Below are positions 6,021 through 38,508 of a stretch of 64,000 bases of DNA, one piece after another. The DNA lies in the NCBI GenBank assembly GCA_030041295.1, contig JASHOD010000115.1, positions 1-64,000 on the forward strand, in the 5' to 3' direction. This DNA is from Nitrososphaerales archaeon (GTDB taxonomy: Archaea; Thermoproteota; Nitrososphaeria; Nitrososphaerales; CADDZS01). A model generated the notes under the pieces. The model did no database searches and had not been told where the DNA came from. It saw only the letters and a list, made by a program, of their open reading frames with translations. Position numbers and translations under genes: made by a program. Each line of letters starts with the position of its first letter. The first letter of the stretch is position 1.

Positions 6021-7526
6021 TCAAGTACTCGTTGTAGTTTTATTCTTCTCCTTGACAGACACAAGCAATTCCGCGGCTTTTTCGTTTTCTACTGCCTGCT
6101 CGGGATTTTCTAGTGTTTCTGGAATAGCCTTTCTGGCTTCTTCCGCAATTTCATTGAGAGACTGGATGATGTTTTCGACTTCTTGTTGTTGTTCTGTTGC
6201 TGATGCTTCTTCTGGTTCTTCCACTTTTTCGTCCGTTTTTGGTACTTCGGCTAAAATGTCGCTTGCTTCTGGTATATTCTCAGTAGTAGTGGTACTAGCG
6301 AAAATTTCCTCGGCCTCTGGAATGGTAGTAATTTTCTTCTCAGCTTGCTTGTTTATCCTCCGACCACTCTTGATTAAGGAAAGCCTGGACGGGACGTCGC
6401 TGACTTGAGGAATCGTGGGGCGCTCCTCTAACTGTACTTTGTCTTGCAACTGCTCCGCAAAATGCATGGTAAGAATTCTGTTTGTACTATCGTAGCTCTG
6501 TCCTAAAAGCTCCATTCTGTTTCTACTTAGGCTGATTGCTTCCAAGAGTCCAGACGCGATGCCTTCAAGGAACTGGTTGCCATATGAAACATCGCGTTCG
6601 AATGTCGGAGGGTCTAGTACGGTCACGCTTCCCAACTTTCCTTTAATTTCTCCACGCAGTTCGAAAGTCCCCCAGCCTGAGGCTAGTAGGAAGCCTTGCA
6701 CGTTCTCGAGCAGTAGACTATTCCTTATCTTGGGAAGTTTCGGTAACATCCTAGATCCAATTCTGAACACCCGCGTGGAACAAACAGCACATGACCCTTG
6801 CACTGCGGGTTTGCCATTCTTCATAATCACCTGCATCGGATTACTTACTTCCCTCATGGCTCTGCATCTTACACAGAAAGCCTGAACTGTCGTATCTCCG
6901 ACTCCGCCATTTACTTCTTCTTCGATGCCATATCCATCGAGTGGAAGCAGGTCAATCGATTTAGATAACAAGCTCTTGAAATCCTCGATCGCCTCGAGTA
7001 TGTAGCTACGCCCCTCGTCGTAAAGCGCACTGGTCCCAAGAGTTCCCGCGTCTCTAGCTAGGCGGGAGCCTAACTTGATAAACGTGTTCGAGCGTAAAGC
7101 AAGCGCACGGTGCGAGTCGTAGAATACAAGCGGAAAGGATCTTCCGTACATCAATCCTCGCAATTCTTGATATTCTACCGCTGCCACAAATCCCAAATTT
7201 CTAACAAACTTCGAAAGTTCGGCTGGATTTGATCCGCACCTTGATAGGTCGCACTGCAGAGCTATTGTAAACTGCTGCTTTTTTTCGTTACTGACCCGAC
7301 TGTTGAAAGAAAGTATCTGAGCACCTTTTTCGATGAAGAGGCCTAGAATCTTGTTTTGAAAATCGCCAGTATCCTTGCCTTTCACTTTCCCCATAACGAG
7401 GAATTCGTAGCAGTTTTCACCTGCCGGTGCACTGAACCCAATGTTGTTAGAAAAGTACGGAGCAGTAAGCTGATTTTGTCTGTTCCTAAAATTAAAGAGC
7501 GCCACAGTTTTTCTCCAGCATTGCAA
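6021..7526 (-). CDS. V4R-like sensor-type protein with inserted DUF5679 zinc ribbon (paralogue A)
   Basis: This 501-residue protein is one of three paralogues in the window. Residues about 30-135 form an ACT-like regulatory module (CYEFLVMGKVKG, LFIEKGAQILSFNSR). Residues about 140-190 and 272-360 resemble the two halves of a V4R (4-vinyl-reductase) small-molecule-binding domain, with LYDEGRS and GFLLASGWGTFEL. Only this copy carries a zinc ribbon between the halves: Cys218, Cys221, Cys246 and Cys249 in a DUF5679-type sequence (FCVRCRA, KNGKPAVQGSCAVC). The last 130 residues are acidic and Thr/Glu-rich and likely disordered. No enzyme or DNA-binding domain is visible, so the function is unknown. 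Confidence 0.8.
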   Translation of the reverse strand: MQCWRKTVALFNFRNRQNQLTAPYFSNNIGFSAPAGENCYEFLVMGKVKGKDTGDFQNKILGLFIEKGAQILSFNSRVSNEKKQQFTIALQCDLSRCGSNPAELSKFVRNLGFVAAVEYQELRGLMYGRSFPLVFYDSHRALALRSNTFIKLGSRLARDAGTLGTSALYDEGRSYILEAIEDFKSLLSKSIDLLPLDGYGIEEEVNGGVGDTTVQAFCVRCRAMREVSNPMQVIMKNGKPAVQGSCAVCSTRVFRIGSRMLPKLPKIRNSLLLENVQGFLLASGWGTFELRGEIKGKLGSVTVLDPPTFERDVSYGNQFLEGIASGLLEAISLSRNRMELLGQSYDSTNRILTMHFAEQLQDKVQLEERPTIPQVSDVPSRLSLIKSGRRINKQAEKKITTIPEAEEIFASTTTTENIPEASDILAEVPKTDEKVEEPEEASATEQQQEVENIIQSLNEIAEEARKAIPETLENPEQAVENEKAAELLVSVKEKNKTTTST

Positions 7527-7683
7527 GAGCTAAAAACAGTAATCATTAGCCCTTATGAAGGGACAATTGGGCACATGATAGTAGAGCGAGAATTCGTACG
7601 CAGAAGGAATGAACGGAAAAAATGATACCGTGCTCTCTCTTGAGAAGAGAGCTGTTTCTTTGGTTGTTATTGTTGGGAGTTAT

Positions 7684-7830
7684 CTATTTCACCGTAATGT
7701 CTTCGGCCATAACCCAGCCATCCTCGATCTCTCTCAATAGCTGTTCAGCGGCCTTCTTCCTGTTCGGGGCTTCAATATCCAGTACAAGTTCGCATCTGTA
7801 GGTTCTATTTCTATTACTGTTGTGAGACAT
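7684..7830 (-). CDS. Small hypothetical protein (48 aa)
   Basis: An ATG-started frame of 48 codons ends at TAG 7684-7686. The product has a strand YRCELVLDIEAP, an amphipathic helix NRKKAAEQLLREIEDG and a final strand VMAEDITVK, a compact beta-alpha-beta shape that looks like a real small protein. It lies between paralogue A and the zinc-finger gene, on the strand of paralogue A and about 160 nt upstream of it. No function can be assigned. Confidence 0.55.
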   Translation of the reverse strand: MSHNSNRNRTYRCELVLDIEAPNRKKAAEQLLREIEDGWVMAEDITVK

Positions 7831-8278
7831 AATGGATCAAGCTCGCGAATTGCCAAAAATAAGAGACTTGTGAATTTGAAATACTATACCCGAAATTCCA
7901 ATTTTACCTTGATTCTTGACTTGAGCAGAAAAGAAATGACCTGCAGATCTCCCCAATCCTCTTTTTGTCCCACTTGTAACTCAAAAGCCAAAGTCCAAGA
8001 AGAATTATGGTTCCTCTCTTACCGCACCTTCCTAACAATGACTCTGGCTTCAAGCATGCATGCTCAAGGGGAGGGCGTGTTGATAACACAGATTCGTAAT
8101 GATATATCGACTCCCTATGGTAATTTTCGTAAAAGCATCATCATGGACTAGTATGAATAAACCAAAATTCCTTACCTTAGGGTTTCGACATCATATATCA
8201 TAACGAAATCCCCCTGAAGCAAATGGGGGATAAAGAAAAAAAATTACAAAGAAAAAGAAAAAGGAGAGAATTAGACAC

Positions 8279-8488
8279 ATGCGATTTCCACAGACGACAG
8301 CCCGAACGAAGACCCTTTCATCCAAGCAAGGACGAATGCAAATTTATTCTTGCGACTTTTGCGAGTTCGTTCATAGCAGCATCAGCATTGCCGATGACAA
8401 TGAGCGAGAAATGATTGAATTAATGGACGGGGCGTTTGAAGCAAAGTATCTGTTTCATATGAGGACCGTCCATGGCCTAGAGAAGTAA
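8279..8488 (+). CDS. Small C2H2-type zinc-finger protein (copy 1)
   Basis: The 69-residue product has Cys25 and Cys28 (YSCDFCEF) and His60 and His65 (YLFHMRTVH), a C-x2-C-x31-H-x4-H arrangement likely to bind one zinc. A second copy at 35340-35534 keeps exactly the same spacing and the flanking GRM-x-x-YSC and FEAKYL sequences. Both lie next to a V4R-like gene, here converging with paralogue B across 65 nt. Zinc fingers of this size often mediate nucleic-acid or protein contacts. The role is inferred from context only. Confidence 0.75.
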   Translation: MRFPQTTARTKTLSSKQGRMQIYSCDFCEFVHSSISIADDNEREMIELMDGAFEAKYLFHMRTVHGLEK

Positions 8489-8553
8489 TACGCAGAAGAA
8501 TGCGGGGCGCTTTCTTTCCTTCCTTCCGTAAAAGTAAAATGGGAGTTAGCAAC

Positions 8554-10056
8554 TTATAGCCAGAAATTGTCTTCCAACTCGGAGCCCGACGAATCTTTGC
8601 CTATAATTTTCGTACTAGCTCCTTTTTCGTTTTTCTTAGCAGAAACTGCTCTGAACCCGTTCTTTCGTCCACGGCGATTAGGGGCCGTCTTTTGTGGAAC
8701 TTCTTGAGCTTCCTTTTGCTCGTCGTCCCCATACTTTGGCGCTTTATCTAAATTCTTTTTGACCTCTGGACTTGCGACAGGAATTATCTCCTTATCGTAG
8801 GTGACAGAATCATTCGCCTTGGGGATCTTTTCAATCGACTTGATCAGACGATCGACCTGCTCTTGAGCTTCAGCGGAGCCATTATTCTCTTCGATACCAA
8901 GTTCCGGAGATTCTGTTACGACATCATTCATAGATTCCTCGACTGGAGGTGGAAGCTGTTGGGATTGAATTTGTAACCTACTTCTCGTTTGCGAGACGAT
9001 TGGGATCTGGATGACCGGGCTGGCCAATTCCTTTTCGTTTATCGGCTCGGGTTTTGAAGGTTCAATTTCTGGTGTGCCTACTTCATTTCGTTGTTCTTCT
9101 TGGTCTTCTAACGCAACCTGATTAAGGTAGAATAGTGTAAGTGCCCTAGACTCGCTATCGTAAGACTCCTTCGTAATGCAAAGGTTGAGTTTCCGTGAGG
9201 CGCTGGGTAGCGATTCGATTATTCCTGCTATCATTCCCTGCAAGAAATAATTTTCAACAACAATTCCTCCGTCGGCATCTGTCGGAGGATCCCACAGCAT
9301 AACGCGGTAAGCGTCCGAGCCCTCCTTTTTCGAAAAAGACAATGTTCCCCATCCCGCCGCGCGCATAAAGGCTCTTGCATTTTGGAAAATGTAATCTTCT
9401 TCTTTCTCTACTTCTTCTCCACCTGCCGCCTCGTCTCTAGGAAGCTCCTTACCTTTCCCACTATCCCCGTCGCCGTTTCCAAGGAATTCTCTTATTGTGC
9501 TTACGATCTCGCTCCCCTCGCTACGCCCGTCTTCGTACAAGAGACTCTTTGCTCTCACATCCCCCAGCGCTTCAGAGATGTGGCTGAATAGCCTCGTGAA
9601 TCGATCCGAGTCGATAGCTAGTGCTCTAACCGTCCCAAAGAATGTAAGAGGAAATAGGAATTCCGTGAAAATTATACGGTTCGAGCCCTTGTATTCTCCC
9701 AGCTTTACAAATTTCTTGAGCTTGTTTAATCGCAAAGCCAAATCTGCGGGAGTGCGCTTTGCGTTCGAAAAGTCAGTGACCACATCCATGACAAATTGCG
9801 TTGGAGATTGATCATTGAAGAACGTTAGCGAGTTGATGCGGACCTTTTGCTCTTCGAAGATTTTCAAAACTGCTGTAAGGGCTTCCCGTTCCTTGTTTTG
9901 TAACCCCATGAGCACAAATTCATACTGATTTTTGGAGCATGGAATCGAATAGCCGATGTTATTTGGATAATACACTTTCTTCCTCTCAAGCGGAGAACGA
10001 TTTTCTTCGTCGTCATTGCTTTGTGAGCCCAGGTTTTCCTCGACCGTGATCGGCAT
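8554..10056 (-). CDS. V4R-like sensor-type protein (paralogue B)
   Basis: This protein of about 500 residues shares its whole plan with paralogues A and C. After a short leader, an ACT-like module (QYEFVLMGLQNKER, RINSLTFFND) is followed by a V4R-like domain (LLYEDGRSEG, then ARAFMRAAGWGTLSF and NYFLQGMIAGIIES) and a disordered tail of about 160 residues rich in Glu, Pro, Gln and Lys. It lacks the zinc ribbon of copy A; an acidic linker with GEEVEKEED takes that place. ATG 10056 is chosen. GTG at 10062 or 10068 is possible because an AGGAGGAG sequence lies just upstream. The ligand and partner are unknown. Confidence 0.8.
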   Translation of the reverse strand: MPITVEENLGSQSNDDEENRSPLERKKVYYPNNIGYSIPCSKNQYEFVLMGLQNKEREALTAVLKIFEEQKVRINSLTFFNDQSPTQFVMDVVTDFSNAKRTPADLALRLNKLKKFVKLGEYKGSNRIIFTEFLFPLTFFGTVRALAIDSDRFTRLFSHISEALGDVRAKSLLYEDGRSEGSEIVSTIREFLGNGDGDSGKGKELPRDEAAGGEEVEKEEDYIFQNARAFMRAAGWGTLSFSKKEGSDAYRVMLWDPPTDADGGIVVENYFLQGMIAGIIESLPSASRKLNLCITKESYDSESRALTLFYLNQVALEDQEEQRNEVGTPEIEPSKPEPINEKELASPVIQIPIVSQTRSRLQIQSQQLPPPVEESMNDVVTESPELGIEENNGSAEAQEQVDRLIKSIEKIPKANDSVTYDKEIIPVASPEVKKNLDKAPKYGDDEQKEAQEVPQKTAPNRRGRKNGFRAVSAKKNEKGASTKIIGKDSSGSELEDNFWL

Positions 10057-10304
10057 TTTCACTAACACTCTCCTCCTTGTTTACTCCTTTAGGAATATAT
10101 TGCGAACTCGAAATCCTGATTTTGAAGTAGTTAGTTGGATTAGTATTACAAATTCCGTACGAAATTCCAAAGGAAATGATCGTTCTCCGAAACTTTGAAC
10201 CATGACAACAGTGTCTTGTGACCCGAAACATCGATAGGCTTTGGTTTATTATGCCCTTATCAGATCTAACACAGATCAGAGTCGAAGAAGGGAATCTTTC
10301 TAGA

Positions 10305-11366: not shown

Positions 11367-11729
11367 CTAGCGGCCGCCGTCTTCCTCTAGGATATTCAGT
11401 ATATCATCAACTAATTGAAGTGAAACCTTCGGCTCTGCCGTAACGAGTAAGATCTTGTGCCCGAATGGGAACTGGAAGACTTTGAGCTTGTCGTGGGCTA
11501 TGATTGAGAAGCGAAAACGATCAAAGTATTTGGTCCAAGAGTCTGACATCCCTCTCGCCACAGTAGTTTGGAGGAATAATTTGTGGTTCTCTTCCTGCGG
11601 GTTGATCGATTCCATACCATGGCGCATCCCTCCCTCAATATGTCCGCCTCTTTGGTCAACTATTGCACAATAGCGTATGTCGGGGCTTAGTGCGAAGACT
11701 CTTTCGATGAGCCGATGGTGACTTGCCAT
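11367..11729 (-). CDS. Roadblock/LC7-like small protein (DUF6659-type)
   Basis: The 120-residue protein begins with a helix (HRLIERVFAL) and then the strand-turn-strand IRYCAIVDQRGGHIEGG typical of roadblock/longin-like folds. It ends in HKILLVTAEPKVSLQLVDDIL. Such single-domain proteins often serve as regulatory partners of small GTPases or sensor complexes in archaea. A distant paralogue lies at 46413-46751. It has its own promoter region, with a TTTTAT-type sequence about 25 nt before the ATG. Confidence 0.6.
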   Translation of the reverse strand: MASHHRLIERVFALSPDIRYCAIVDQRGGHIEGGMRHGMESINPQEENHKLFLQTTVARGMSDSWTKYFDRFRFSIIAHDKLKVFQFPFGHKILLVTAEPKVSLQLVDDILNILEEDGGR

Positions 11730-18154: not shown

Positions 18155-20092
18155 TCATTTGTTTAATGTAGCGAGTACAACTTGTGCGGCCTTCCTGCTA
18201 ATATTTCCTGCCTGAGCAATTTCTTCAGGATTGGAATTTTTTATGGCATCAATTGAGCCAAAATGGGCAAGTAAATTTCTCTTTCTTTGCTCTCCGATGC
18301 CTTCGATGGAATCGAGAACGGATTCGGTCATCTTTCCTCCACGTAATCTTCTGTGGTATGTTACTCCGAATCTGTGTGCTTCATCTCTGATGTGCTGCAA
18401 TATGTGCAAGGCCTCAGAATCCTTCCCGAGCTTGATCGGAAAGACTCTCCTCGGAAGGAAGATTTCTTCTTCTCTTTTTGCAAGAGAAATGGTTGGGATC
18501 CCAAAAACGCCGTCGCGATGCATTTGTTCGATTGCGGCATTGAGCTGACCCTTTCCGCCATCGATTACGACCAAGTTTGGCGGTTCGCTGAACTTCTTCT
18601 TAGGTGAAGAGTTGGTCCTTTCTCCTACTTCTGCAACTTCTTTTTCTTCTCCAAGCAGGCGTCGAAATCTTCTGCCGATCATCTCTTGCATCATCGAGTA
18701 ATCATCTATGCCGCTCACGGTTTTGATTTTGAACTTTCTGTAAGAACTACGATCCGGGATACCGTCGACGAATACAGTCATCGCTCCAACTGCCTCTTCT
18801 CCGTGAATATTTGAAATGTCGTAGCACTCGATGCGTCTAGGAACTCGATCTAGACCTATTATTTCTTTGAGTTCCTTCAGAGCACGCAGTCTCTCTCTCT
18901 TTCTTACCTCGTCTTTTGATTCTTCTTCCTTTAGGACTAGCATTGCGTTTTCTTGCGCAAGTTTGAGTAATGCCTTGTTCTCTGGACTGTGCGCAGTAGT
19001 AGATATCTTGATTCGCTTATCTTCCAGCTGTTGTTCTTTGTTGCTAGCTTCAATCCTCCTTTCAAGCTGAGTATTCAATAGCAACTCGACTTCGTCCAAA
19101 TCTTCTAATTCATAAGGGACTACAATTTCCCTTGGCATTTCAAGAGTCTTGGATCCGTAATACTGTTTCATGAAAGCTGAGAGGATCTCGGAATCCTTTG
19201 TAGTCGAACTCGCACCTTCGAGAATGAACTTATCTCGTCCGACGACATTACCCTCTCTTACGTGAAATGCTATCGCTGCGATTATGCTGCCCTCTCGCGC
19301 AATAGTAAGAACGTCCTTGTCGCTTTTCTGATCTGGGAAGACTACTCGCTGTTTTAGTGCCGTTGTTTCTAGAGAGCGAATTTCGTCTCGAATCTTTCTG
19401 GCTTTCTCATAGTCCTGAGCTCTGGAAGCTTTCCACATCTCCGAATACATTTGTCTGCCTAATTGTACGAGCTTACCCTGTAGAAAAAGCTGGAATTTAG
19501 AAACGTCTGAATAATATTCAGTTTTAGAAACGGCGAAAATGCATGGGGCCTTGCATAAACCGATATTGTAGTCTATACAAGACTTGAATTTCTTCGCTCC
19601 GTCAAGAGGTAACGTGCATCCTCTGATTGGAAACATTTTCCTAAGGTATTTTACGGACCTTTTAGCGGCTCGGACATTTCCATAAGGGCCAAAGTATTTC
19701 CCGCCGTCATCTAGTACCTGGCGAGTGACAAACACTCTTGGATAGATTTCGTTCGTAATCTTGATGTACGGATAGCTCTTGTCGTCTTTTAACCTGATGT
19801 TGTACCGCGGCTTGTATCTCTTGATCAGGACGTTTTCTAAAATCAGAGCCTCGATCGGACTAGAAGTTATGATGTAATCCGCGCTTGTGATTTGATCTCT
19901 CAGGCTTTGTCCGACGGGATCTTCAAACCGAGGTCTGAGGTGCGCGAGTATCCTCGATTTGATACTCGTCGCTTTGCCGATGTATATCGGAGCCTCGGCT
20001 CGATTCTTTAGAATGTATACTCCGGCTAGAGTGGGGAGATTCTCAAAATTACCGAGCGGCGTTGACACTGTTCGTTGTTGCTTGAAGCTCAA
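18155..20092 (-). CDS. uvrC: UvrC, excinuclease ABC subunit C
   Basis: The 645-residue protein has all UvrC parts. They are an N-terminal GIY-YIG nuclease (GVYILKN...[13 protein letters not shown]) for the 3' incision, a Cys cluster (GCTL, SCID, LCKAPC) that can hold an Fe-S cluster, a UVR helix pair ([15 protein letters not shown]) for UvrB contact, an RNase-H-like domain ([20 protein letters not shown]) for the 5' incision and a helix-hairpin-helix end ([18 protein letters not shown]). The TTG start at 20092 overlaps the uvrA 3' end by 44 nt, so expression is probably coupled. Confidence 0.96.
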
Positions 20093-23000
20093 CTAGCTTC
20101 TTCTTATCCTCCTGTTCTTGTTCTTCTTCTCGTCGGCCTCTGCGAATATCCTCCAGCTGCCTATTTAGCTCCTTTTCCGCATTTGCAACCGCCCTAGCTC
20201 TTGAATCATTCAGGATGTGTTTTAGGAACTGTCCCGTGTAGGAAGTACCCGAATATGTCGAGACTTGCTCGGGTGTTCCTTCCGCTACAACTAACCCACC
20301 CGCCTCTCCTCCCTCCGGCCCAAGATCTATTATCCAGTCGGCGGTCTTGATAACGTCCAGGTTATGCTCTATCACAATGACGGAATTACCGGCATCTGTC
20401 AATCGTCCAAGCACCTCTAGTAGCTTCTTGATATCTTCGAAATGTAGTCCGGTTGTCGGCTCATCCAGCAAATACAGAGTCTTTCCTGTAGCTCTCTTCG
20501 AAAGTTCGGATGCTAATTTTACCCTTTGAGCTTCGCCACCAGATAATGTAGTCGCGGATTGACCCAAGGTTATGTAGCCAAGGCCGACGTCATTCAGGGT
20601 AGCTAACTTTCGTTTAATTTTCGGGATATTTTCGAAGAAACCAAGAGCTTCCTCGACCGTCATTTCGAGAACGTCCGAGATGCTTTTTGTCTTGTATCTT
20701 ATCTCGAGCGTTTCGCGGTTGTACCTCTTTCCCTTGCAGACTTCGCAGGGGACATACACGTCTGGTAGGAAGTGCATTTCCAAGCGAATGATTCCGTCTC
20801 CCTCGCAGGCTTCGCACCTGCCGCCACGTACGTTGAAACTGAACCTCCCAGTCTTGTATCCCCGCGCGATAGAGTCAGGCATCCTAGTATAGAGGTCTCT
20901 AATGTCTGTGAATACTCCGACATATGTTGCCGGGTTGGATCTAGGGGTTCTCCCTATGGGGGACTGGTCAATTATTATCGCCTTGTCGATGTTCTCGAGT
21001 CCAACTAACGAATCATAAGCTCCTGGCTTTTCTCTAGCTCCGTACAGTTTCTGTGCTAGCGCACGATACAAAATGTCATTGACAAGCGTACTCTTGCCGG
21101 AACCAGATACCCCGGTAATGCAGGTAAATATGCCGAGAGGAAACCGCACGTCAATGTTTCGTAAATTGTTCTCTTTAGCTCCTTTTATGATCAGATATTT
21201 ACCGTTGGGAGCTCTTCTTTTCGGCGGAATTTCGATCTGGCGCTTGCCTGAAAGATACTGACCGGTTATCGAGCTCTCGCTTGAAGCAATTTCATCTGGA
21301 GTCCCTATTGCGACAACATGACCACCATGAATTCCGGCGCCAGGCCCCAAGTCAACAACAAAATCCGATTCCCTAATTGTTTCTTCGTCGTGCTCGACGA
21401 CTAGTACAGTGTTCCCTAGGTCTCGTAGAGCCTTCAACGTCGCAATTAGTTTCCTATTATCCCTTTGATGCAACCCGATGCTAGGTTCGTCAAGTATGTA
21501 GAGAACTCCGACCAGACTGGAGCCTATCTGAGTAGCGAGCTGGATTCGCTGGGCTTCACCTCCAGAGAGAGAAGCAGCGGCGCGATCCAAAGTGAGATAA
21601 TCTAGACCGACGTTTAGTAGAAACCGCAGTCTCGCGTTGATTTCTTTGAGGATTTGTGACGCGATGACTCTTTCCTTTTCGGTAAGGCTCAAAGAAGAAA
21701 AGAAATTGATAGCTTGGCGAATTGAGAGCGAAGACACCTGCGATATTGATTTCCCGCCAACCGTCACCGCGAGAATCTCGGGTTTGTAGCGCTCTCCGCT
21801 GCACGATGGACAACGCTGGTTGCTGAGGAACTTTGCATACCACTCTTTCATAAAGTCGGACTCGGTCTCAAAGTAGCGGCGCTCGAGTTGCAGAAGAATA
21901 CCTTCGAACTCCCTTTCATAGAACCACCAGTGTCGCTCTCTTCTCACCCCGGAGGCTACAGTTTCATTTTGCGTTTCCTTCCTGCCGCTTTTGTTTCCAT
22001 ATAGAAGATAGTTGAGTTGCTCTCTTTTGAGCTTGTTGATCGGAGCATCCATGCTAAAGCCCGCCTTTCTTGCGACGCGCGCAAGCATTCGCATACTCCA
22101 AGAGTCGGTGTCAGACATGGTCACAATCGCTCCCTCGTTGATCGACTTGGTCTTGTCGGGTATTACGAGATCAGGATCCATGTTTAGAAGGTATCCCAGT
22201 CCAAGACATTGCTTGCATGCCCCGAATGGGCTATTGAATGAAAACATCCTAGGAGAGAGTTCTTCCAAGGAGAAACCGCAAGTAGGACAAGCCATCGCCT
22301 CGCTCAGGACAATTTCATTAGATGTGCCGCGAGTCTTGCGATCCTTTTCGTTTTGTGTAGGGGGTTCTCCGAGTACGAACACCACAGTTCCTTTGGAGAA
22401 ATTGAGAGCTGTTTGGATAGAGTCGGCCAGCCTCTTTTGGATTCCGTCTCTTACGATTAATCTATCTACGATCGCTTCGATTGTATGTTTCTTGTTCTTC
22501 TCAAGTGGTATCGTCTCGTCTTGGTCTAACTCGTAGACCGCGCCGTCCACTCTTACCCTAGAGTAGCCGTCGACCTTTAGGTCCTTGATGATATCCTTGT
22601 GTTCCCCCTTCTGGGATTTGATCAGCGGTCCCAGAACCTGAATCTTTGTTCCATCTTTTAGTTTCATTATCTGGTCGACCATCTGCTCCACGGTTTGCTT
22701 CTCAATCACCTTCTTGCAGTTTAGACAGTGGGGAATTCCAATTCTTGCGAACATAAGCCGGAGATAATCGTGAATCTCTGTCACGGTTGCGACGGTCGAT
22801 CTTGGGTTTTTCGCAGAACTTCTTTGCTCGATGGAAATCGCCGGAGAAAGTCCCTCGATATAATCGACATCCGGCTTGTCCATCTGCCCGAGGAATTGTC
22901 TTGCGTAAGCCGAGAGGGATTCGATGTAGCGCCTTTGCCCTTCGGCGTAGATTGTGTCAAAGGCGAGCGAAGACTTGCCCGAGCCGGAGAGACCCGTCAA

Positions 23001-23120
23001 AACAACAAATTTGTCACGCGGAATCTCAAGACTAATGTTCTTGAGATTGTGTTGTCTCGCGCCGCGGATGATTATTCGGTCTTTGGATTTCTTGATCGAA
23101 TAATCTAGCTGCTCGGGCAT
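20049..23120 (-). CDS. uvrA: UvrA, excinuclease ABC subunit A
   Basis: The protein of about 1,023 residues is a full UvrA with two ABC ATPase modules (GLSGSGKSS and GVSGSGKST Walker A motifs, two LSGGEAQR signatures) and Cys-pair zinc modules (CPTCG...CKQC and CEACEGDG...CEVC). It recognises bulky DNA damage and loads UvrB. ATG 23120 is chosen, with upstream codons looking non-coding. The C-terminal 60 residues form a charged Glu/Arg/Gln-rich extension beyond the usual end. uvrB is not in the window. Confidence 0.97.
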
Positions 23121-23309
23121 GATTGTATTATGCTTGTTTAGTTCGGATGAGGACAAGATAGATTCATTTCTTTCCAATTTTTTAGAAAAAATTGTGCGTA
23201 GATCCAATCTACAGCTAAATTCAATCAATTAACTGTTTATGCTATCCGAGGCATACAGCAATCGCTAAAGTAGATAATAATTACTGCATTTTTACTGCAT
23301 AATCCGTAT

Positions 23310-33597: not shown

Positions 33598-35145
33598 TCA
33601 GAACTTTACAGCGTCGACTGAAGAATATTCTTCGTCGTTGTTCTCGCTTACTTCAACGACTTGCTGCTGCTGAACTTGCTGTTGCTGTTGCGCTTGCGCT
33701 TGCGCTTTTGGGGTTCGCTTCCTCGCCGGTGATTTTCTTACAGGTGTCGGCGGCTGCTCCAGCGGAGGCTGAACAATTTGAACGCCATATCCTATCATTT
33801 CTCCTTGTTTGACAACTTTGATAGACGTTGGTTGATCGGCTAAAGGAGCAGCGCTAGTAGTAGCAACAGGAGCAATTTGTGTCTTTCTAGGTCGGGGAGT
33901 TGGCGGAATTATTTGTTGCGGAGCTACGGTCTTTTCATCTTCTAGTTGTTCTTCTTGTTGAGGTAACTGTTGAGGAGTTACGTCAGGATTCATAACTACT
34001 GAGGCATTTCCGATTGGAGCGGCAGAAGTAGCAACTACAACTACTGGATTGCTAGGAGCCGCTGGTTGTTGCTGTGGCCCAGTTTCTCCACCACCTTCTT
34101 CAATTTGTTTGATTGATTTTATTACTTGAGCTACTTGGACAGCCGCATCTCCGGAGTTTCGTGCTCGTTGCGTGAGTTGCGGCATAGGCGCAACAAGTTT
34201 CTTCGCCCTAATTGGTTGTTCATCAAAATCTTCATCCTCATCCTCTTCGGCTTGGATGCTGTCTTCATCCTCATGCGAAAGTTCCTTAATCGCTGCCTTG
34301 TCCATGTAATACAGCACAAGGTTCTGTCTCTGCTCTTCGTACCCCTCTCTTAACATTGTGAGTTTAACTTCAGGTCTTAGGAAAGACTCTATGATACCTG
34401 CGACTACACCTTGTAGAAAGTAGTTTCCTAAAACTGCGTCACCTTCAGCATCGGCTGGAGGTTCTGTGATTGTCGCCTTGTAAATTTCAGCACCTTCGTT
34501 GTGGAAGAGTAATTTGCCCCATCCGGCTGCTTGGAATAGAGCCTTCGCATTGTCAAGGAGCAATGATTTGTCCTTCGACAACTTTTCTCCTAGTTTCTCT
34601 TTGAGAGCTGCCATTATTTCTCTTCCTTCCGTTCGTCCGTTATCATACAAAGATTCCTTTGCTTTATTGCCAAAGGATTTTGTGATATTTTCGAATAAAT
34701 GTACGAACCTATCTGAATCTAGGGCGACAGCCCTAATTTCTCCTCCAAAGAATGTAAGAGGAAACATGAAATTGCTAAACATCCTTCCTTCGAGCGGATT
34801 CATCTCAGCTAACTTCACGAACTTTGACTTGTTCAATTTGATAAGGAGTTGATCCTCCCGGGTCTTTGCGAAAGTGAAGTCGCACACAACATCCATCGCA
34901 AATTTATCCATCGATTGGTCGTTGAAGAAAGCAAGAGAGACTATCCTAACTCCGCCAGAGTCTAGGATTTTCATAATCTGGGGGATGGCTTCTCGTTTCT
35001 CGTTTTGCTGACCCGATATTGCAAATTCAAAATGCTGACTAGGAACCGGAGTAGGCATGCCCAACGTTATGGGATAGCTGACCTTCTGGTCTGGTTCGTA
35101 ATTCAGCGCTTTTTCCGTACTTTCTAAGACTCTTTCTAGTCCCAT
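33598..35145 (-). CDS. V4R-like sensor-type protein with Gln-rich tail (paralogue C)
   Basis: The 515-residue protein aligns with paralogues A and B throughout: ACT-like module (HFEFAISGQQNEKREAIPQI, VRIVSLAFFNDQS), V4R-like domain (SLYDNGRTEG, AKALFQAAGWGKLLF, NYFLQGVVAGIIESF) and a long disordered tail (about residues 300-515). The tail has acidic blocks and runs of Gln, including one of QQQQQ type. It is closest to paralogue B. A C2H2 zinc-finger gene of the same kind as at 8.3 kb lies 194 nt upstream on the same strand. Function is unknown. Confidence 0.8.
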   Translation of the reverse strand: MGLERVLESTEKALNYEPDQKVSYPITLGMPTPVPSQHFEFAISGQQNEKREAIPQIMKILDSGGVRIVSLAFFNDQSMDKFAMDVVCDFTFAKTREDQLLIKLNKSKFVKLAEMNPLEGRMFSNFMFPLTFFGGEIRAVALDSDRFVHLFENITKSFGNKAKESLYDNGRTEGREIMAALKEKLGEKLSKDKSLLLDNAKALFQAAGWGKLLFHNEGAEIYKATITEPPADAEGDAVLGNYFLQGVVAGIIESFLRPEVKLTMLREGYEEQRQNLVLYYMDKAAIKELSHEDEDSIQAEEDEDEDFDEQPIRAKKLVAPMPQLTQRARNSGDAAVQVAQVIKSIKQIEEGGGETGPQQQPAAPSNPVVVVATSAAPIGNASVVMNPDVTPQQLPQQEEQLEDEKTVAPQQIIPPTPRPRKTQIAPVATTSAAPLADQPTSIKVVKQGEMIGYGVQIVQPPLEQPPTPVRKSPARKRTPKAQAQAQQQQQVQQQQVVEVSENNDEEYSSVDAVKF

Positions 35146-35339
35146 TTTATTTTCAAAGCGGACCTAGCTTTCGAACGTTACCTGCTTTCAAATCTTCGAA
35201 AGCGTGGCCAATGGACTGGTCTTAAGTGCGCTTATAACATTGCGAAGCGCAAACTAAAATTACGAAGATCTACACATTGATCGGAACCTGAAATTCTATA
35301 TCCAGAACAGAGAGGTGGAGAAAACGGATCCACGAGTCT

Positions 35340-35534
35340 CTAGCGGTCGAGCGAGTGGACTGATCTCAGATGGTAGAGGTATTTGGCTTCAAAAGCAGAA
35401 TCGGCGAGCTTTCCATCGTCAGAATCAACTTCTCCTGCGTCTGGTAGGTTATTTTGGACGAACTCGCAAAAGACACAGGAGTAAACCTTCATGCGTCCTT
35501 CTTTCGTTGATAAGGCGCTTTTTTCTTGGCTCAT
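35340..35534 (-). CDS. Small C2H2-type zinc-finger protein (copy 2)
   Basis: The 64-residue product (ATG 35534) has Cys20 and Cys23 (YSCVFCEF) and His55 and His60 (YLYHLRSVH). The C-x2-C-x31-H-x4-H spacing and the surrounding GRM-K-V-YSC, FEAKYL and VHSLDR/VHGLEK segments match copy 1 at 8279-8488. It precedes paralogue C on the same strand. An upstream in-frame extension to 35615 is possible but not conserved in copy 1. Confidence 0.72.
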   Translation of the reverse strand: MSQEKSALSTKEGRMKVYSCVFCEFVQNNLPDAGEVDSDDGKLADSAFEAKYLYHLRSVHSLDR

Positions 35535-35840
35535 GATGGAGCTTTGCTCTTCTGTCCTGTCTTGTTTTTCTGCTCCGTTCATCGCTTTCTGTTGGATGCT
35601 TTTTCTGGTGCGCAATTTTCGGACGCTCTATAGGTAGCTTGAACCCTAAAGTAAAGAATTTGAGCGAATTGCAGATCTGATGCTTTAGTGAATTTGTGAA
35701 AAGTGCACAAAGGGATTCGATATGAAGTCTGAAATTCATATTATCGAATCAATTCGTGCTTAGATTTTCCCTCTTTTCATCTCATTCTCCCTTAAAAGCT
35801 CGTTAACAACGCCGTAATCTGTTCGACCACTAGCATATCG

Positions 35841-36095
35841 TCTCTGGGGCACCCTCAGCGTTTTCGTGTTATCCCGATCCTTCCTCCGGTCTTTTACCCG
35901 ATCACCATACTACCATCTGATCTAAGGCCGTTCGCCGAGCTTTCGCCTACGACGCATGCCTCGATATTGATCCAGAGCCTTAACAGCGTTCATTTCAGCT
36001 CGAGCCAGATTACTCTAAGTTGGATCGCGCTTCCGATTTTCGCCGCGGTGTTCCTCTCCCTCGCAATGTTCAAAGCACGCTGGAGGGAAGGTTAA
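35841..36095 (+). pseudogene. C-terminal remnant of an ABC-2 type transporter permease
   Basis: The frame ending at TAA 36093-36095 encodes ILPPVFYPITILPSDLRPFAE, then LSPTTHASILIQSL, and a final hydrophobic helix (IALPIFAAVFLSLAMF) ending KARWREG. This is the highly recognisable end of DrrB/ABC-2 permeases. There is no start codon and no ATPase partner gene, and the upstream half is missing, so it is a leftover of a deleted transporter. It fills most of the 540-nt gap between zinc-finger copy 2 and the next small gene. Confidence 0.65.
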
Positions 36096-37248: not shown

Positions 37249-38508
37249 TTAGCTATTTCTTAGATCATTACGCCATTGCTCGGGAACCTTGCTCGAAAAC
37301 ACTGTTTCCTTTGCACCTAGAAAATCTGCCAGTTCCAGAATCGAGCGGGCGACTGCTTTTGAAGTATCTTTGGATTTTGGAGCCGCTGGTTCTGCAAAGA
37401 CAGCGTTTATGAAGAGCTTCCCTTGTTCTCTGTCCATTTTAGGATCTATCCTTCCGATCAACCTATCGCCGTGAAGAATTGGAAGGACATAGTATCCAAA
37501 CTTTCGTTTGGCCTTTGGAACGTAGATCTCGAAACTCATTTCAAAGCCAAAAAGAGTTAGAGTTCTCTTTCGGTCAATAATCAGGTTGTCAAACGGCGAA
37601 AGAAGCGTCGTTCTTGGATCGAATTTTCCATTTTGAACTAGTTCCAAGATGGGTATATCCTTTGAATGAATGTACCATTCTTTTCCCTTACCATTTCCAT
37701 TTGGAACGAGATCACGAACTTGCACCTCAGAAATTTCTCCTTCCCGCTCCAAATCATTTAGAATTTTGTCAGGATCTTTGTATCGACCGTACGCGAAATG
37801 CTCCATCATCTGTTTCTTCGTTGCGATTCCCAGCGCTTGTAGGGATTTCATCACTCCAAGCCGGTCCACCTCGCGATCAGAAAGCGCATGCTTCGGAGTC
37901 GAGCTTGGTAAACATCGCTCCGAAAGATCCCAAAACTTTTTGATTCCGGATCTTCTCTGGACCATCACCTCACCTTTCATCAAGAGAAATTCCAGCATAC
38001 GATTGACATTTCTTTCATTTGTCCAGCCCGAAGATTTCCATCCTTTGTGTGACAGGTCCTCAATATCTCGAGACTGGAGTGGTCCCCTGTGCTTTAGCTC
38101 CTCGATTATATGGATGCGGAGCTTTGCGTTTTGTTTCATCCAACTTCCAATGTATTCATGCCACGATGCATAATACAAAGTTCCATCTGTAAATTGTCTC
38201 ATCCTCGCGCTGTGAATCGGATAATCATCTGTTATGACTATTGAGGCCGCATGAGCGAAATATTCGAAGAGTTTCCGCTCCTTCCATAACAAATGACCTA
38301 GGTCAGCGAGCTTGTAATTTCCAAGCCTGCTCCAAAGTACTAGCTCGTGACTACGAGCCACGACGCTTATTGGATCGATTTGTAAGTAAGACAGGCTTTG
38401 AATTACTTGATAGATGTGCTCCCTAGTCGGGCTAGACGGGCGAGCGCCTGCTAGATGCTGTTTTAAGATTGCGACTCGTCTTACGTCTTGAACCGATACT
38501 TCAAGCAT
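37249..38508 (-). CDS. AlkZ/YcaQ-like winged-helix DNA glycosylase family protein (HTH_42)
   Basis: The 419-residue protein matches the HTH_42 family: SLSYLQIDPISVVARSHELVLWSR near residue 40 (the Gln-x-Asp motif of AlkZ-type enzymes), EYFAHAASIV, and the C-terminal LSPFDNLIIDRKRT, KRKFGYYVLPILHGDRLIGRID. Characterised relatives excise alkylated bases and unhook interstrand crosslinks. It fits the repair theme of the window but stands alone as a gene, divergent from an isochorismatase-type gene. Confidence 0.85.
   Translation of the reverse strand: MLEVSVQDVRRVAILKQHLAGARPSSPTREHIYQVIQSLSYLQIDPISVVARSHELVLWSRLGNYKLADLGHLLWKERKLFEYFAHAASIVITDDYPIHSARMRQFTDGTLYYASWHEYIGSWMKQNAKLRIHIIEELKHRGPLQSRDIEDLSHKGWKSSGWTNERNVNRMLEFLLMKGEVMVQRRSGIKKFWDLSERCLPSSTPKHALSDREVDRLGVMKSLQALGIATKKQMMEHFAYGRYKDPDKILNDLEREGEISEVQVRDLVPNGNGKGKEWYIHSKDIPILELVQNGKFDPRTTLLSPFDNLIIDRKRTLTLFGFEMSFEIYVPKAKRKFGYYVLPILHGDRLIGRIDPKMDREQGKLFINAVFAEPAAPKSKDTSKAVARSILELADFLGAKETVFSSKVPEQWRNDLRNS

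Follow-up and report, generated by a model that had tools for sequence, protein, structure and literature searches.

The DNA considered here is a 64,000-nucleotide stretch (the window) of contig JASHOD010000115.1 from a Nitrososphaerales archaeon (GenBank assembly GCA_030041295.1). It encodes three proteins, designated P1, P2 and P3, which combine an ACT domain, a V4R-type domain and a long disordered tail. They are very probably ligand-binding regulatory proteins. The chances are about even for the whole chain of events, in which they would act as ligand sensors and regulate transcription through partners docked on a helix in the tail. Sensors related to P1-P3 are physically linked to DNA-binding-type proteins by a gene fusion, by adjacent winged-helix genes and by nine adjoining zinc-finger genes. 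The tail architecture on V4R-based sensing and the candidate partner family are new here. The three genes are as follows.

6021-7526, minus strand: P1, 501 amino acids; ACT and V4R-type domains, the V4R part interrupted by a zinc ribbon, then a disordered tail.
8554-10056, minus strand: P2, ACT and V4R-type protein with a disordered tail; the open reading frame (ORF) spans 8554-10068 (504 amino acids), with an ATG at 10056.
33598-35145, minus strand: P3, 515 amino acids; ACT and V4R-type domains followed by a disordered tail rich in Gln and Pro.

A preliminary description made from the sequence alone had placed three related proteins at 6021, 8554 and 33598, and ORFs are indeed found there, all on the minus strand and mutually alignable. 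P1, P2 and P3 are true paralogues that can be aligned across the N-terminal 300 residues. In full-length alignment, P1 is 27% identical to P2 and 23% identical to P3; the cores of P2 and P3 share 45% identity, P1 being more distant. A fourth, tailless copy is located on contig C53. The source assembly comprises 3.68 Mb in 159 contigs and is estimated to be 96% complete and 6.9% contaminated; a contaminant origin is unlikely because orthologues are present in two further genomes of the same genus. Scans of P1-P3 against Pfam, NCBIfam and PADLOC returned only DUF5679, in P1, which gives no link to defence. A sequence search of the PDB with P3 gave no match, and the collection of papers searched contained none on ACT-V4R proteins and none on DUF5679. 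The domains of the cores are located as follows.

6450-7457, minus strand: ACT-V4R core of P1, zinc ribbon insert included (E 4.3e-63).
9121-9972, minus strand: ACT-V4R core of P2 (E 6.8e-99).
34792-35040, minus strand: ACT domain of P3, residues 36-118 (Z 10.7 to 2f1f, root-mean-square deviation (rmsd) 2.2 over 77 residues).
34276-34731, minus strand: V4R/Bet3-type domain of P3, residues 139-290 (AlphaFold model, Foldseek, VIA-align).
6759-6875, minus strand: DUF5679 zinc ribbon in the V4R part of P1, residues 218-256, CxxC...CxxC (PF18930, E 1.6e-12, above the cut-off).

No Pfam model matches P2 or P3, DUF5679 is the sole match of P1, and none of the three has a direct Pfam V4R or ACT match. 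The presence of an ACT-like module and a V4R-like domain, as first described, was borne out through intermediates, profile-profile comparison and a structure model. Tailless homologues in other genomes match Pfam ACT models just below the cut-off, and one canonical homologue matches both ACT and Pfam V4R, the latter above the cut-off (E 4e-9). When the profile of the tailed proteins and their near relatives (A2) was compared by hhalign with that of canonical ACT-V4R proteins (A3, to which this homologue belongs), 227 columns were aligned with a probability of 99.8 and E 7.6e-28. The missing direct V4R match looks like a matter of detection, because the Pfam model covers the cysteine-bearing C-terminal part that is replaced in the tailed clade.

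In the AlphaFold model of P3, built from an alignment of six sequences, residues 38-113 adopt an ACT topology and residues 144-282 are arranged in a V4R-like manner; block-mean values of the predicted local distance difference test (pLDDT) are mostly 57-87 in the core. The ACT elements follow the order strand-helix-strand-strand-helix-strand (E38-46, H53-63, E67-74, E81-89, H97-106, E110-113). For the second part of P3, the neighbours found by Foldseek and VIA-align are MJ1460, TRAPP Bet3-type subunits and the MopR/PoxR phenol sensors. Compared with MJ1460 (2oso), this part gave a Foldseek E of 4e-4 and a VIA-align Z of 9.4 (rmsd 4.7, 122 residues); compared with MopR (5kbi), Z was 10.1 (rmsd 4.9, 134 residues). 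Structure prediction had been named as the test that could overturn the assignment, by a known enzyme fold or by a lack of V4R similarity, and its outcome favoured V4R.

In most V4R domains, helices 2 and 5 each carry a pair of helix-packing glycines spaced by three residues (PMC2253512). Both pairs are kept in P2 (GRSEG and GMIAG) and P3 (GRTEG and GVVAG); P1 keeps the second (GIASG), and its first reads GRSYI. The tailed clade has other residues in place of the conserved cysteines of the canonical relatives (FEC, ETKC...CEF). Zinc is bound by cysteines of that V4R region in PoxR and Thor-TRAPPC3, and in mouse TRAPPC3 the zinc site is replaced by a hydrogen bond (PMC10933270). The loss of cysteines is therefore compatible with a ligand cavity.

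The tails extend beyond the core by 142 residues in P1, 188 in P2 and 232 in P3. Their disorder, as first described, is upheld by charge-hydropathy and pLDDT; their length is 142-232 residues as against the 130-200 claimed. By charge-hydropathy the tails of P1-P3 lie on the disordered side, as do 15 of the 17 tails of the family; only the short tail of L107 and the tail that bears a winged helix do not. The P1 and P3 models show tails almost wholly below pLDDT 50. A de novo Gibbs search revealed one 14-residue motif in 15/17 tails, with a score of 317 against 209-223 in six shuffled sets. It is an amphipathic helix motif, V-x-x-[IVL]-I-x-S-[ILV], and is missing from the winged-helix fusion L116 and from the divergent member L114. 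A hidden Markov model (HMM) of the motif, run over nine genomes, ranked the same 15 proteins first (E <= 1.5e-4), with the next match at 0.008. The copies in the window are:

6135-6191, minus strand: tail helix motif of P1, QQQEVENIIQSLNEIAEEA (HMM E 1.0e-4 genome-wide; predicted helix 443-466).
8815-8868, minus strand: tail helix motif of P2, AQEQVDRLIKSIEKIPKA (HMM E 2.5e-6 genome-wide).
34093-34146, minus strand: tail helix motif of P3, AAVQVAQVIKSIKQIEEG (HMM E 4.9e-5 genome-wide; predicted helix 332-350).

The AlphaFold helices over the motif in the P1 and P3 tails are of low confidence. Look-alikes in DegT/DnrJ-type aminotransferases (E 0.008-0.08) correspond to a C-terminal helix of the enzyme and were rejected as chance matches. 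At the C-terminus of many tails, including those of relatives, an acidic stretch precedes aromatic or hydrophobic residues (DNFWL in P2, VDAVKF in P3).

In one tailed member of the family (L011/L116, genome G008), an HTH_45 winged helix forms the C-terminus (E 2e-8, above the Pfam cut-off), and in the maximum-likelihood tree this fusion is nested inside the tailed clade. The statement that no output domain is visible thus holds for P1-P3 and fails for the family. At L117/L129, L138 and L142, a separate winged-helix gene directly follows the sensor gene and precedes the zinc-finger gene. The L117 winged helix matches HTH_45 with E 6.9e-10 and the Sso10a family with E 8.6e-11, the latter below the curated cut-off; those of L138 and L142 give weak HTH_45 matches (E 0.05). 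The fused and adjacent partner candidates belong to the Sso10a/HTH_45 winged-helix proteins, whereas P1-P3 themselves contain no winged helix.

A second link is provided by a family of tiny zinc-finger genes, two of which lie in the window:

8279-8488, plus strand: tiny C2H2-like zinc-finger gene, 69 amino acids, convergent with P2 and separated from it by 65 bp (E 7.1e-33).
35340-35534, minus strand: tiny C2H2-like zinc-finger gene, 64 amino acids, upstream of P3 on the same strand (E 6.6e-34).

Members of this family are 53-69 amino acids long and share the invariant pattern YSCxFCxFV...KYLxHxxxxHxL, in which Cys, Cys, His and His are invariant with CxxC and HxxxxH spacing. The family is under purifying selection (pN 0.048, pS 0.504, for nonsynonymous and synonymous changes, respectively). 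Besides P2 and P3, the zinc finger adjoins seven more ACT-V4R genes, five tailed and two tailless. Nine of its 22 copies have an ACT-V4R gene no more than 1.2 kb away, with 0.1 expected. It occurs in exactly those eight of the nine genomes of the archaeal family that carry ACT-V4R genes and is missing from the ninth; among 151 genomes sampled from the order, a single dubious match lay outside the family. The link between sensor and zinc finger is strong and is not obligatory, because 13 zinc-finger copies stand alone.

Between the zinc finger and P3 lies a short conserved element:

35231-35244, minus strand: 14-nt element CGCAATGTTATAAG (= CGCAATGTTNTAAG), kept in three genomes.

It is retained there despite diverged flanking intergenic DNA and is possibly a promoter or operator. 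In the window it is not enriched: 17 matches with up to three mismatches were counted against 18 expected, and one copy is exact.

ACT and V4R/Bet3-type folds bind ligands in other proteins. By analogy with known families, the ACT domain of P1-P3 would bind an amino-acid-like effector and the V4R domain a hydrophobic one, the domains forming a dimer. Effector binding may alter access to the tail helix, which would dock a partner; the candidates are the zinc finger and a winged helix of the Sso10a/HTH_45 type. The sensor-partner complex would then set transcription of target genes, with the output acting in trans. The paralogues could give separate inputs to related outputs, and the built-in zinc ribbon of P1 could replace a separate zinc finger. 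More tentatively, the whole may be a lineage-specific module, in which sensors without their own DNA-binding domain, like eukaryotic co-regulators, recruit shared tiny zinc-finger or Sso10a-like partners through the tail docking helix. Accounts of archaeal regulation usually centre on one-component regulators that carry the DNA-binding domain on the same polypeptide. If the proposal is true, P1-P3 would represent a different layout, with ligand domains, no DNA-binding domain and a disordered tail with a docking-like helix, and would offer a handle on the common, uncharacterised archaeal ACT-V4R proteins.

Several observations weigh against transcriptional control through docked partners. DNA binding by the zinc finger is only assumed, because the protein has no Pfam, NCBIfam or credible PDB match. 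Some of the nine adjacent loci are orthologous to one another, which leaves about five independent cases. Thirteen of the 22 zinc-finger copies have no adjacent sensor, and 10/17 tailed members have no nearby zinc finger, in some instances because of a contig end. In four of the seven tailed cases the sensor and zinc-finger genes converge rather than being co-transcribed, and none of the genes next to P1-P3 was found to encode a winged helix. The AlphaFold cores of P1 and P3, built from six-sequence alignments, are of moderate confidence only.

Of the sensing or scaffolding role suggested in the preliminary description, sensing is likely, and no positive evidence was obtained for a pure scaffold. 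A scaffolding or trafficking function, in which V4R/Bet3-type dimers tether membranes or complexes as in TRAPP and the tail recruits clients, is improbable. V4R and Bet3 are homologous (PMC2253512), and Foldseek places TRAPP Bet3-type chains beside MJ1460. Bet3/TRAPPC3 and MJ1460 have the fold and the glycine pairs in common with the family (PMC2253512), P2 and P3 keeping both helix-packing pairs. However, the bacterial phenol sensors are equally close in fold, and the fused and adjacent genes encode DNA-binding-type proteins. No longin, GTPase or trafficking gene was noticed in the neighbourhoods, many of which were read by eye, no genome-wide search for partner subunits being made. Unlike Bet3/TRAPPC3 and MJ1460, P1-P3 have an ACT domain and a long tail, and no trafficking context was seen for them. 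The phenol sensors XylR, DmpR, MopR and PoxR share the V4R sensor fold with P3 (MopR, Z 10.1) and differ in their AAA+ and sigma-54 output; P1-P3 have no AAA+ domain according to Pfam, no sigma-54 output and no zinc-site cysteines.

Equally doubtful is the possibility that P1-P3 are allosteric or regulatory subunits of a metabolic enzyme or an exporter, with the ACT domain acting as in the small subunits of acetolactate synthase and the tail serving as a tether. The best structural match of the ACT domain is an acetolactate synthase regulatory subunit (Z 10.7), but ACT folds match one another widely, which makes the match unspecific. Genes of ABC-2-type exporters adjoin P3 orthologues and two tailless members, and putative sulfate-assimilation genes adjoin two DUF5679-type members; no enzyme family is, however, a constant neighbour, and the contexts vary between paralogues and genomes.

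Somewhat less likely still, the tails could be neutrally expanded low-complexity extensions, only the ACT-V4R core being of importance. They evolve faster than the cores (pN 0.35-0.46 against 0.15-0.24), vary in length and contain homopolymer stretches. Yet the helix motif is kept in 15/17 tails across genera, and the tailed state forms a single clade.

The least probable alternative is a redox or metal sensor that detects oxidation or zinc through its cores and zinc ribbons, in the manner of MsvR, a V4R redox regulator (PMC3729527). The MsvR model is matched by a canonical ACT-V4R relative in its V4R part (E 1.1e-5, below the cut-off) and P1 carries a zinc ribbon, but the canonical cysteines are replaced in the tailed clade, so that this mechanism is lost from the core. 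In MsvR of methanogens, the V4R domain is joined to a helix-turn-helix (PMC3729527). P1-P3 would resemble MsvR in using an archaeal V4R domain for gene control, and the canonical relative gives that weak match; P1-P3 lack the helix-turn-helix and the three conserved cysteines of MsvR and carry an ACT domain instead.

The closest known proteins are the widespread archaeal two-domain ACT-V4R proteins of about 265-300 amino acids, which have the domain order and full-length homology in common with P1-P3; no dedicated Pfam or NCBIfam family was found for them. None of these relatives has a tail, and the C-terminal cysteine motif, lost from the tailed clade, persists in the canonical ones. Genes of the ACT-V4R type are present in eight of the nine genomes of the archaeal family, often in multiple copies. 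Across the phylum, 89 of 300 sampled genomes match the ACT-V4R profile, which also catches single ACT or single V4R matches; among the matches listed outside this family, ORFs are at most 329 amino acids long and no long tail was seen. In the maximum-likelihood tree, all 17 tailed proteins fall into one clade (support 97/89). The five DUF5679-type members, including P1, form one clade (100/99), and the groups of P2 and P3 are sisters, both of which contain orthologues from other genomes. Given these clades and orthologues, the tail most likely arose once, within this archaeal family, and P1-P3 are most likely old paralogues rather than recent tandem duplicates. The lineage expansion that had been proposed is supported. 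The occurrence of three copies in 30 kb is true of this contig; it is not a conserved feature, because orthologues sit on separate contigs in related genomes.

The neighbourhoods contain further genes. Pairs of an ABC-2-type exporter ATPase and permease, judged by sequence alone, are located at L104 (7293-9082), L106 (3921-5695), L118 (3369-5170) and L122 (3447-5369); beside P3 itself, there is only an apparent permease fragment (window 35796-36092). Two DUF5679-type loci, L105 (4903-9408) and L108 (5054-9552), contain an apparent ATP sulfurylase, APS kinase and permease, likewise judged by sequence. In three genomes, tailed members have in their vicinity a conserved cluster that comprises a MoxR-like ATPase and companion genes (L109, 1504-6253; L114, 2518-7428; L117, 189-2885). 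Genes for a second small protein rich in cysteine (KDCRKYLARxHYSVCKRCYNKR) turn up repeatedly, close to a tailed gene and close to outlying copies of the zinc finger, at L109 (7521-7889 and 8345-8638), L134 (703-1182) and L144 (2766-3098). A small protein near P2 (window 11367-11729) gives a weak DUF6659 match (E 0.004, below the cut-off). Between and around the family members, the window also carries genes for bacterial-type UvrC and UvrA and for an AlkZ-like DNA glycosylase (18155-23228 and 37249-38508).

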